A DNA stretch of 45,907 nt from a virus. The stretch spans positions 1 to 45,907 of the IMG/VR virus record IMGVR_UViG_3300027742_000014; one strand, given 5' to 3'. Positions 25,340 through 30,788 of the stretch are shown in pieces (position 1 is the first letter of the stretch; every line of letters starts with the position of its first letter). Both the position numbers and the translations under genes were made by a program. The notes under the pieces were generated by a model. That model did not search any database and had not been told where the DNA came from. It worked only from the letters and a program-made list of their open reading frames with translations.

Positions 25340-25381
25340 TATGTTATGACATCTTTAAAACATCGGTAAATCTATTCCAGG

Positions 25382-25624
25382 ATGAAAGCCCGCAAGAAAA
25401 TTAAAGAGGTTATACTTGGGTTAACTTGGAATGATGTTGTCCATCACATTGATGGGGATCCCTTTAACAACGATATTAATAACCTTGCCGTTATGGAAAG
25501 GGATGAACATATAAAATACCATAGTAAAATAAGTGAAGCGTGGGGCCCATCTGAAAAATCCATTACTCAACGTTTCAAAGAACTAAATAGCCTGCTTGTT
25601 TTATACAATGACGGTTTAATATAA
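25382..25624 (+). CDS. Small HNH_3-type endonuclease-like protein (80 aa)
   Basis: First gene after the 25312 promoter. VVHHIDGDPFNNDINNLAVM (19-38) and HIKYH are the core of HNH_3 homing endonucleases. There is no attached DNA-binding domain (NUMOD or AP2), so it is either a minimal nuclease or a remnant of a longer one. The ribosome binding site is weak (CCAGG). Confidence 0.65.
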   Translation: MKARKKIKEVILGLTWNDVVHHIDGDPFNNDINNLAVMERDEHIKYHSKISEAWGPSEKSITQRFKELNSLLVLYNDGLI

Positions 25625-28067: not shown

Positions 28068-28300
28068 ACAAACCAAACATTTCAAGACCGACTTTAAAAT
28101 TAGATGAAAAATTTTGGCGAGAAGCCAGAACAAGATTAAAATTTGCTGAAGACTTTTCAGTAAAGAAGTTAGAACAGAAAATAAGACAAATGTTTGATGA
28201 AACAAACGCACGTTTTGTTTATAATGAGGGCAGTCTTTATTATATTGACCCCAAAGACGTTAAGGTAAAGGAAGTAAAGCGGGAAGAATGGCAGAAATGA
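28064..28300 (+). CDS. Small protein before the terminase (78 aa)
   Basis: Start at ATG 28064 (ATGA overlap; an in-frame ATG at 28049 lies within the upstream gene). Helical and charged (FWREARTRLKFAEDFSVKKL) with a short beta hairpin (RFVYNEGSLYYIDPKDV). Overlaps the terminase gene by 13 bases. Function unknown. Confidence 0.6.
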   Translation: MNKPNISRPTLKLDEKFWREARTRLKFAEDFSVKKLEQKIRQMFDETNARFVYNEGSLYYIDPKDVKVKEVKREEWQK

Positions 28301-29811
28301 ACCAGGAAGAGCTTGAGGCGAAGTTAATTGAGGAATATCCGCTGTTTTTTTTAGAGATGAACCGGGCGCAGGAGCTGTTTATCCGGTGCAAGAACATTAA
28401 TGGGGAGACACCGAGGACGAGATTGTTTGAGGCGGGCAACAAAATCGGGAAATGCACGTCATTTCAAGCACTTATAAGCACTCCATCTGGAGAGTTTAAG
28501 GTGGGCGAGTTGTATAAAAAAGGCAAACCGTTCGATGTTTACGCATGGGATGGGAATAAAAAAGTAATTGCGAAGGCCCACGCTCCGTTCAAGAAAGAAG
28601 GCCTCCACAAGTGTTATCGGATAGAAATGAGTGATGGTCGTGTTATAGAAGCGGCTGATGAACACCTGGTTTTGACTTCCTCCGGATGTTACAGCTTTGT
28701 TCACGACATTTACGAAGCCTTTCAAGCCCATCGGGAGTCCAATTCGGGCACTTTCCCGTCAGTTCCTCTTTTAAATGCTCCCCGTTTGAAGCAAAGAGAA
28801 CAAGATTCTCGATATGATTGTTTGATGGATTGCGATCAAGATGGTGAACAACTTCTCCGGGAAGTACGTAACGACCAGTTTTCTGTTCCATCACGAGATG
28901 GCTCTCAAGAACGTAATTTTGTGTTGCGTAAGGGTGGTTATAGGAGTAAATATATGGGTATTTTCCGACCATTTTTCTCCCACCTTTCCAATTTGTGTGA
29001 CCTTCCCCGTTACGAGGTCCTGTCCGTTGAGTCTTTAGTCCAAGACGCCTACAGGTTCTTTCTACGGTGCATTGGTGGATCCCCAGCTTTTCAGCAATTA
29101 GCCTTTGCTGGAGACATTCAACCTCAACCATGTTCCGAATTTTCTCAATCATTTCTTTCGGGATCCCCTTTGAGTGGTACGGTGATTTCTTCATATAATC
29201 CTCCTTTAGTTGATGGTAATCATATTATAAATATTAATCCTATTGATGTCAAGCAAGAAGTTTACGATTTTACAGTAGAAAAATACCACAATTATTTTGC
29301 CGGGGGGTTAATACATCATAATACGCACGGGGGAATAGCAGAGGATATAGCCCATTCGATGGGATTCAGGCCGTGGTTGTACGAGGATGACCCCGACTAC
29401 AAGATAAAGATAAAAATTCCTAATCAGGGGTTAATTGCGTGTGAGACGATGATGCATTCTGTACCGGAGAAGATTGATCCCACGTTAAGGCTGTTAATTC
29501 CCAAGACCTGTAAGCCCAAATTTAAACCCGGCCCGACAGGAATAACGATTCGTGTCACCTTACCTTATGATTGTAACGGGAAGAAGTGTGGTTCGGTAAT
29601 TCATATTCGCTCTTATGACCAGCAGGCGGATTCATTTGAGGGGATTGATTATGATTGGGTGCATTATGATGAGCCGCCGCCGGAGGAGACATATAAGGCG
29701 GTTGAAAGAGGGAAGGTGGTAACCAATGCTCCAACGTGGTTTACAATGACACCATTGAAAGAAGCATGGGTTTACGATATCCTTAGTTTAAAGGCGAGTG
29801 TAGTGGTATGA
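28288..29811 (+). CDS. Terminase large subunit, ATPase half, interrupted by an intein (507 aa)
   Basis: The exteins are residues 1-55 and 346-507 (217 residues after splicing): phage DNA-packaging ATPase. The Walker A loop AGNKIGK (49-55) is rejoined to T346 by removal of the intein at 56-345. Walker B with the catalytic acid is DWVHYDE (456-462), followed by a TMTP coupling motif (FTMTPLKEAW). The protein stops right after this, where large terminases usually continue into the nuclease domain; that domain is the next gene, overlapping by ATGA. So the precursor must splice and then act with a separate nuclease polypeptide, or the split is a recent change. Confidence 0.88.
   Translation: MAEMNQEELEAKLIEEYPLFFLEMNRAQELFIRCKNINGETPRTRLFEAGNKIGKCTSFQALISTPSGEFKVGELYKKGKPFDVYAWDGNKKVIAKAHAPFKKEGLHKCYRIEMSDGRVIEAADEHLVLTSSGCYSFVHDIYEAFQAHRESNSGTFPSVPLLNAPRLKQREQDSRYDCLMDCDQDGEQLLREVRNDQFSVPSRDGSQERNFVLRKGGYRSKYMGIFRPFFSHLSNLCDLPRYEVLSVESLVQDAYRFFLRCIGGSPAFQQLAFAGDIQPQPCSEFSQSFLSGSPLSGTVISSYNPPLVDGNHIININPIDVKQEVYDFTVEKYHNYFAGGLIHHNTHGGIAEDIAHSMGFRPWLYEDDPDYKIKIKIPNQGLIACETMMHSVPEKIDPTLRLLIPKTCKPKFKPGPTGITIRVTLPYDCNGKKCGSVIHIRSYDQQADSFEGIDYDWVHYDEPPPEETYKAVERGKVVTNAPTWFTMTPLKEAWVYDILSLKASVVV
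28643..29194 (-). CDS. HNH homing endonuclease gene antisense to the intein (183 aa)
   Basis: ATG at 29194 behind AAAGGAGG (29207-29200) and a consensus promoter. Residues ~11-55 form an HTH (EMIEKIRNMVEVECLQQRL, EKLGIHQCTVERTCRRLGL). Residues ~60-150 are an HNH_3 domain: NGEGHTNWKGG, ESHLVMEQKTGRYVLPGEVV, HHLDRNPSNNHIENL, NGEHLKEELTGKCPNW. The last ~25 residues run antisense to intein block B. The whole gene lies inside the intein codons. It probably cuts intein-less terminase genes and so spreads the intein. Confidence 0.92.
   Translation of the reverse strand: MKKSPYHSKGIPKEMIEKIRNMVEVECLQQRLIAEKLGIHQCTVERTCRRLGLKTQRTGPRNGEGHTNWKGGRKMVGKYPYIYSYNHPYATQNYVLESHLVMEQKTGRYVLPGEVVHHLDRNPSNNHIENLVLFASNGEHLKEELTGKCPNWTPDGLERLRKCREQSCNIRRKSKPGVHQPLL
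29224..29252 (-). promoter_or_regulatory. Consensus sigma70 promoter inside the intein's C-terminal codons
   Basis: Reading leftward, TTGACA (29252-29247), a 17-base spacer and TATAAT (29229-29224). It is a full match to the sigma70 consensus, yet these bases also encode intein residues between the linker and block F. Predicted start near 29217, ten bases before the endonuclease ribosome binding site. Confidence 0.85.
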
Positions 29812-30788
29812 GTGAGTTTGATCCCGAAATAGCCGTTATACGTGGTGAAATCTGGGATAATTGCATGGATTGGTGTCATACGTGTGACGTACTCGTTCCT
29901 GAGAACTTTATAAACGAAGACGGCAAGGTTATACGGGGAATTCCGCATTGTCCGAAATGCGGGCGTGTAATGGGGTTTATACCGAAGGCGGGGATAGAAG
30001 AATACCTTAAAAAGCTGGACCCGGAAGAGAGGGAAGCCAGGGAAAAAGGGATATGGTTACATTTAAGTGGTCTGGTTTACAAGGTACTCAGCCGCGAGAA
30101 ACATATTTATGAAGATTTTTCCATTCCTAAAGACTGGATGTTTGTTGAGGGGATAGACCCACATGATGCACGTCCGACACATTGGGGATTTGGTGCGGTA
30201 AGCCCGGAAGAAATAGAAATTTACGACAAAAAGCGTAACAGGATTTACTGGTATGACCAACTACTTTTAAAAGATGGCGATATTAAAGATTTTGTCCGGC
30301 AGATAGAAGCGAGAAGGGCGTTACACGGCTACAAGCAACCCAAAGTAGTTGTGTTGGATGCTAAATTCGGAGCTAAGACAGAATTTGAGCGGAAGACATG
30401 GCAGGGGGAATTGGAGAAAAACGGTATTAAACATATAACTTTGTCACATTCCGCGCCGGGTGATGTGGAATTGGGGCACAAAATAGTAAAAGAATATCTG
30501 AAACTCCAATTTTCTACCTTACATGGTGAAGCAAGGCCGGGAATGGTGTTTGCGAAGGACGGATGCGGAGGTACAGACGGAATTATTCATTCAATGTTCA
30601 ATTATCAGTACAAAGATGACGGCAGGGGCAAACCTGTGGAAAAATATAAGGATTGGAGTGATGTTGTCAGGTATGTAGCAATGGAACAGCCCAAATACCG
30701 AAGCCCGCAGGAAGAAAAGGATAGAGTAACCTATCTTGAAGACAGATTGGGAACAGCGATGAGGCAGCGAAGACACAGTTATGCCTAA
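29808..30788 (+). CDS. Terminase large subunit, nuclease half (326 aa)
   Basis: Begins by ATGA overlap where the ATPase half ends. DPEIAVIRGEIWDN (5-18) is the usual link after the ATPase, a zinc knuckle is inserted (CHTC, CPKC, ~24-52), and the RNase-H-like nuclease follows, with acidic residues in VEGIDPHDARPTHW (first metal ligand region), VVVLDAKFG (second) and a late Asp in KYKDWSDVVRY (third). It cuts concatemers during packaging. As a separate polypeptide it must associate with the ATPase half. Confidence 0.85.
   Translation: MSEFDPEIAVIRGEIWDNCMDWCHTCDVLVPENFINEDGKVIRGIPHCPKCGRVMGFIPKAGIEEYLKKLDPEEREAREKGIWLHLSGLVYKVLSREKHIYEDFSIPKDWMFVEGIDPHDARPTHWGFGAVSPEEIEIYDKKRNRIYWYDQLLLKDGDIKDFVRQIEARRALHGYKQPKVVVLDAKFGAKTEFERKTWQGELEKNGIKHITLSHSAPGDVELGHKIVKEYLKLQFSTLHGEARPGMVFAKDGCGGTDGIIHSMFNYQYKDDGRGKPVEKYKDWSDVVRYVAMEQPKYRSPQEEKDRVTYLEDRLGTAMRQRRHSYA

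Follow-up and report, generated by a model that had tools for sequence, protein, structure and literature searches.

To our knowledge, the endonuclease of an intein is expected either to be encoded in frame or to have been lost. The terminase locus analysed here raises the question of whether an intein may instead carry this gene on its other strand. The window, by which we mean the whole stretch of DNA analysed (45,907 nucleotides), spans the entire IMG/VR virus record IMGVR_UViG_3300027742_000014, and an earlier examination of the letters alone (hereafter the sequence-only reading) had proposed that a terminase intein in this window has an antisense HNH gene in place of an in-frame endonuclease. 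We now consider it very probable that this element, inserted in the Walker A loop of a phage terminase, is a mobile intein whose homing endonuclease gene runs antisense inside the intein gene.

The motifs that had been noted in the intein are all present, namely the Hint blocks with Cys1, the block B histidine (H71), the terminal HHN and Thr at position +1. The insertion lies in the Walker A loop, as had been stated: Cys1 (28453) follows ...EAGNKIGK, and the terminal ...GGLIHHN, ending at 29322, is followed by Thr (Table 1). In profile searches, the intein matched TIGR01445 (intein_Nterm, 9e-7), TIGR01443 (intein_Cterm, 5e-5) and, above the cut-off, the Pfam family Intein_splicing (PF14890, 4e-10). 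Among 78 relatives, C1 was assigned in 77, and the final Asn and a Ser, Thr or Cys at +1 were found in all 78. An AlphaFold model based on a 41-sequence alignment contains two Hint halves with a pLDDT of about 97 and a loop of about 48, and its best Foldseek matches are the NpuDnaE, SspDnaE and SspDnaB inteins. The element is an in-frame insertion at a conserved site of an essential gene, of which intein-less homologues exist. Profile searches with the in-frame sense linker matched no endonuclease family. A canonical bifunctional intein with an in-frame endonuclease was rejected, because the linker is predicted to be disordered and the HNH gene is antisense; the proposal that this gene takes the place of an in-frame endonuclease is supported.

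The gene opposite the linker is, as the sequence-only reading had reported, a complete HTH-HNH_3 gene of 183 residues with its own ribosome-binding site (AAAGGAGG). Its product matched Pfam HNH_3 (PF13392, 3.5e-9) and PHROG HNH endonucleases (1.5e-16), and H118, N126, N130 and H140 are among the HNH columns that are invariant in 41 relatives. The AlphaFold model, obtained from a 41-sequence alignment of the same depth as that of the intein, has a pLDDT of 88.5; a Foldseek search with this model returned HTH-type matches only, none at E <= 0.001. Just ahead of the HNH core, the window protein has E-S-H where the family has E-H-R, and this copy may therefore be weakened. A perfect consensus promoter (TTGACA-N17-TATAAT), which had been missed by the sequence-only reading, is located upstream of the gene. 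Over 51 loci, the best sigma-70 scores upstream of HNH starts were 8.43, compared with 7.17 in a null in which the Hint codons were synonymously resampled (p 6e-7). Shine-Dalgarno sequences in front of HNH starts showed a similar excess over the null, an enrichment that is partly circular because the starts were chosen partly by their Shine-Dalgarno score. An antisense promoter of its own would fit early or independent expression of the endonuclease.

Table 1. Features of the terminase, intein and antisense HNH genes in the window
Feature	Coordinates	Strand	Basis
ORF of the terminase ATPase part, with the intein inside	28288-29811	+	Open reading frame
N-extein, terminase large subunit: ATPase domain start to ...EAGNKIGK of Walker A	28288-28452	+	Sequence; intein-less L180/L181
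Intein, 290 aa, Cys1...HHN, Thr+1, between Walker A Lys and Thr	28453-29322	+	TIGR01445, TIGR01443, PF14890; Hint fold by AlphaFold and Foldseek
N-terminal Hint half, blocks A and B	28453-28728	+	AlphaFold pLDDT 95-98, residues 1-90; overlap geometry
Block B His71 codon, within the antisense HNH gene	28663-28665	+	Overlap geometry
Sense linker, open, predicted disordered	28729-29220	+	pLDDT about 45-53, residues 100-250
C-terminal Hint half, blocks F and G, HHN	29221-29322	+	Intein profile matches; pLDDT 97-98 from residue 261
Antisense HTH-HNH_3 endonuclease gene, 183 aa, HH...N...N...H present	28643-29194	-	HNH_3 3.5e-9; pLDDT 88.5; invariant columns in 41 relatives
Shine-Dalgarno sequence AAAGGAGG preceding the HNH start codon	29200-29207	-	Sequence
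Predicted promoter TTGACA-N17-TATAAT for the HNH gene, inside C-Hint coding DNA	29224-29252	-	12/12 consensus match
C-extein, remaining terminase ATPase domain	29323-29811	+	Terminase_6N, E 9e-4, under the Pfam cut-off
In-frame T TTA AAG heptamer, at which a -1 shift would join both terminase ORFs	29787-29793	+	Sequence, inference
Terminase nuclease domain, separate ORF, ATGA overlap, -1 frame	29808-30788	+	PHROG terminase large subunit 8e-7

The sense frame of the window is open opposite all 183 HNH codons. The chance of such an opening had been put at about four in ten thousand for random codons, which is of the right order: with the HNH protein fixed and the window copy considered alone, we obtained about 0.001 when codons were permuted within the HNH gene and 0.012 when the codon usage of the C-terminal extein was applied. 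The register places the wobble base of HNH codons at the second base of sense codons and the sense wobble base at the second base of HNH codons, and a sense stop arises wherever an HNH codon ending in TT, CT or TC is followed by one starting with A. Over the whole HNH gene, 54 clusters contained no sense stop, where about 325 (synonymous shuffle) or 317 (extein codon usage) were expected; the other two antisense frames contained 6.7 and 10.4 stops on average. When only the HNH domain was considered, 92 clusters contained no stop compared with 469 expected from synonymous shuffles, as would follow from the sequence-only proposal that selection keeps both readings open. Free-standing HNH_3 genes used as controls showed no avoidance (44 stops observed, 46.2 expected), and none of 48 control HNH ORFs was open in that register. 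Chance opening of the register was rejected on the basis of these two control sets. The HNH proteins also lack Phe followed by Ile, Met, Thr, Asn or Lys (0 of 228; background 23%), pairs that cannot be encoded without a sense stop; their absence is predicted from the register and is not an independent test, because the open frame already entails it.

A comparison of change on the two strands, as the sequence-only reading had suggested, gave divergences of 0.19, 0.14 and 0.41 at the three HNH codon positions and amino acid differences of 0.21 for the HNH protein and 0.49 for the sense reading. Between the isolated phages Koroua and Setonix, 140 of 157 changes in the exteins are at sense third positions, whereas 16 of 28 changes in the overlap are at sense second positions, which correspond to the HNH wobble base. 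The divergence at HNH third positions and this switch indicate that the HNH protein is the conserved product, and the sense reading of the linker is therefore selected almost only for freedom from stops. Both the stop-free sense frame and the HNH protein are kept by selection, as shown statistically. Where the 3' end of the HNH gene meets Hint block B, conserved protein is encoded on both strands. The HNH gene lies entirely inside the intein in 46 of 47 representatives, starting about 43 codons before the intein end and stopping about 55 codons after the intein start, and it includes the codon of the block B histidine in 44 of the 47; dual coding is therefore genuine for the C-terminus of the HNH protein and for a catalytic part of the splicing domain.

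The intein and the HNH protein were searched for separately, and HNH profiles and an intein profile both recovered the same design. In viral contigs, the HNH protein alone identified one locus (L003) and a terminase query another (L004); in both, a terminase contains an intein within which an antisense HNH gene is nested. The first HNH profile scan yielded 80 viral-contig loci and 51 genome loci among the matches listed; the HNH gene is antisense within an intein in 80 of the 80 viral loci and in four genome loci, including Enterobacter cloacae and Acinetobacter contigs. With the intein profile only, 39 loci were among the matches listed, and nearly every complete intein contained an antisense HNH gene. 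Homologues with regular stops in the sense frame opposite the HNH gene, which the sequence-only reading had named as evidence against its proposal, were not encountered in a further HNH profile scan: 71 of 75 newly fetched loci had an intein reading through opposite the HNH gene, one (L231) had a single stop, one (L226) was apparently split, one (L186) was unclear and one (L220) had no recognised intein. In the non-redundant pool of distinct complete inteins from these three scans, two of which started from HNH profiles and one from the intein profile, 139 of 142 among the matches listed have an antisense HNH gene, all in the same register; the search patterns were degenerate, and the figures are counts of matches listed, not abundances. 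The remaining three comprise two short inteins that lack HNH and the second intein of L192.

Several loci deviate from this pattern. In L231 (1981-4152), the antisense HNH gene is retained opposite a sense frame with one in-frame stop, and in L226 (1-700, minus strand) the N-terminal half ends soon after block B and is followed by the antisense HNH gene; each may represent a split intein, decay or a sequencing error. L186 (2-1028) contains an N-Hint-like stretch beside the HNH gene, not around it, at a contig end. L192 (885-4569, minus strand) contains two nearby inteins; the first has its HNH gene antisense, and the weak HNH-like match in the second is on the intein's own strand but in a different frame.

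The intact arrangement is found in nine isolated phages and in prophages. The former include Pectobacterium phage Koroua, whose precursor is annotated only as a hypothetical protein, and Pseudoalteromonas phage PHS3, in which it is annotated as a truncated terminase and an HNH gene. An unbroken precursor of 754 aa is present in eight Pectobacterium/Dickeya records, and the precursor is also unbroken in PHS3. Inteins of this build have mostly been overlooked so far.

In nearly all of the terminases, the insertion point is GNR^SGKT or NRxGK^T of Walker A. The same element is present in strawberry-notch-type helicases (L177 and L185), another helicase (L251) and an AAA_24 ATPase (L209). The P-loop continues directly in the intein-less L180 (GNKGGK^SEIG) and L181 (GNQTGK^SAIG), both near the window lineage, the former being an uninterrupted terminase that is about 64% identical over the nuclease part. 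Intein-less relatives of the Koroua terminase comprise over 800 phage TerL homologues, and the match begins at the +1 residue among the matches listed. In the HNH tree, sequences group by insertion site (7 changes compared with 16 when shuffled), which is consistent with target specificity. HNH genes can be 65-77% identical in terminases that are 24-40% identical, a difference that fits horizontal movement but would also fit stronger constraint on the HNH gene. We also found decay forms: a 222-aa intein with a shortened HNH gene (L064), a 148-aa intein that keeps an antisense HNH tail, NLKQELSGHVPNWTEAG (L162), and a 144-aa intein without HNH (L140). The HNH/intein pairs of L037 and L043 are closely related, and their insertion points in one and the same P-loop are three codons apart (GNQ^SGKT versus SGK^T), which suggests that the element can shift its site.

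On the basis of these results, we propose the following cycle. The terminase precursor would be made from the sense strand, and the Hint halves would fold around the disordered loop, excise the intein and restore AGNKIGK-T; we infer this excision from the motifs, the fold and the viability of isolated phages with the same design. The HTH-HNH protein would be expressed from its own antisense promoter and ribosome-binding site, both of which are seen in the DNA, and its expression would therefore be uncoupled from that of the terminase. In co-infecting phages, it may cut or nick intein-less terminase alleles at or near the P-loop, whereupon repair would copy the intein together with the HNH gene into the cut allele. 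Selection would keep the HNH protein for mobility, and a sense frame free of stops because the essential terminase has to be produced. That all copies share one register suggests that the composite element arose once and later spread to several P-loop sites and gene families. Whether all copies descend from a single ancient composite element with a frozen register, forming a distinct class of mobile inteins across the P-loops of terminases, SF2 helicases and AAA ATPases of environmental phages, is less certain than the mobile intein itself, and we think it somewhat more probable than the contrary.

Other readings of the locus account for parts of these data. The intein might splice while its antisense HNH gene no longer drives homing and only hitch-hikes, excludes competing phages or represses the terminase by convergent transcription. 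The occurrence of free-standing HNH relatives in phages (phiH, PSTNGR2lys and Jack) and the substitutions beside the HNH core of the window copy would agree with this, but the protein is conserved in 92 clusters with its catalytic residues kept, its phylogeny tracks the insertion site, the HNH genes are more alike than their host genes and loss of HNH yields mini-inteins, which together make a non-homing role improbable. The opposite emphasis, in which the sense linker is a functional domain and the antisense ORF a by-product of linker composition, has next to no chance of being correct. It could draw on the sense frame being open in 139 of 139 antisense-HNH inteins and on the DGEQL-type motifs that recur in sense linkers; however, DGEQL is the complement of the HNH active-site VVHH (in the window, DGEQLL is the complement of VVHHLD), residues of the sense reading change more than twice as frequently as those of the HNH protein, the linker is far below the HNH protein in pLDDT at equal alignment depth (about 48 versus 88.5) and the HNH_3 homology is significant.

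The remaining two readings concern the integrity of the host gene. A free-standing HNH gene might have invaded and disabled both intein and terminase, leaving a pseudogene or an accidental overlap, as the two terminase ORFs of the window, the stop in L231 and the broken sense frame in L226 could suggest. We regard this as very unlikely, given the absence of stops where 469 were expected, the constant register, the intact precursors of isolated, propagating phages and the conservation of splicing residues in nearly all copies. The linker might also be a split point, with the halves acting as a split intein and the endonuclease gene lying separately, as in fractured genes; the structure of L226 and the single stop of L231 are compatible with such an arrangement, but no break interrupts the sense frame in the window or in the other antisense-HNH inteins that were counted, so that we give this reading hardly any credence. 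For the window itself, a split intein or fractured gene was rejected on account of its continuous sense ORF. An intein with an antisense homing endonuclease gene is accordingly the explanation that we retain.

The window terminase consists of two ORFs, for the ATPase and nuclease parts, whereas L180 and L181 have a single ORF. The split may reflect a damaged gene, a programmed -1 frameshift, a real split, or a misassembly or assembly indel. The general claim rests on the family and not on this copy.

The arrangement shares features with several known systems. In fractured genes with split inteins, which Dassa et al. are said to have described in 2009, a separate endonuclease gene reportedly lies between the intein halves and the host gene is broken in two; the window likewise has an endonuclease gene between intein halves, but its sense frame is continuous. 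The protein family of the antisense gene is that of HTH and HNH_3 phage endonucleases (PF13392; PHROG 10730, 7545 and 20891), of which the other members examined are free-standing genes, whereas the window member is nested antisense. P-loop inteins are known from mycobacteriophage TerL, with TerL1-a located between the Walker A Lys and Thr, and these encode active endonucleases; an antisense arrangement is not mentioned (Kelley et al. 2016, PMC5050341). The window intein resembles them in its phage terminase host, the same Lys^Thr point and the Hint motifs, and differs in that its endonuclease is an antisense HNH gene and its sense linker is predicted to be disordered.

Nuclear rDNA group I introns of Didymium are known to carry homing endonuclease genes in antisense orientation (PMC9548176), and they likewise place the gene on the strand opposite the host element with its own transcription (in the window, a predicted promoter). 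Their host, however, is an RNA intron of eukaryotic rDNA, where no sense protein has to be preserved, whereas the window has an intein with both strands coding over some 180 codons. A group I intron with an antisense endonuclease gene was rejected for the window, which has no Rfam match and in which the host frame is open across the element. In ShiLan-type insertions in phage methylases, a hidden HNH gene lies out of frame and no splicing domain was found (PMC11855218). The window similarly has an HNH gene out of the frame of the host gene and an insertion open in the host frame, but the ShiLan-type HNH gene is described as an alternate frame of the host transcript, whereas that of the window is antisense in a recognisable intein, with its own ribosome-binding site and promoter-like site; a ShiLan-type insertion was rejected because of the Hint halves and of the opposite-strand location of the HNH gene. 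We found no earlier account of an intein with an antisense endonuclease in the literature searched, which did not extend to a preprint on actinobacteriophage inteins of non-canonical architecture (10.1101/2025.01.02.630785), and priority is not proven.

In the proposed arrangement, protein splicing and mobility share the same DNA on opposite strands, and many phage intein linkers that look featureless would have to be annotated as shadows of endonuclease genes. The 92 clusters provide a replicated natural experiment on the upkeep of long antisense overlapping genes, in which amino acid constraints are clear, such as the lack of Phe ahead of residues with A-starting codons. The nearly free sequence of the sense linker is of practical interest for intein engineering. 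If a single ancient element is indeed the origin, it would constitute a large natural family of protein genes with long antisense overlaps, in which the timing of the endonuclease is set by its own antisense promoter and the HNH 3' end doubles, on the opposite strand, as coding sequence for conserved Hint residues. With the isolated Pectobacterium phages, splicing and homing can be tested directly. Elsewhere in the window, a short second HNH-like frame of 84 aa (25370-25621, plus strand) has weak similarity to the HNH protein of the intein.
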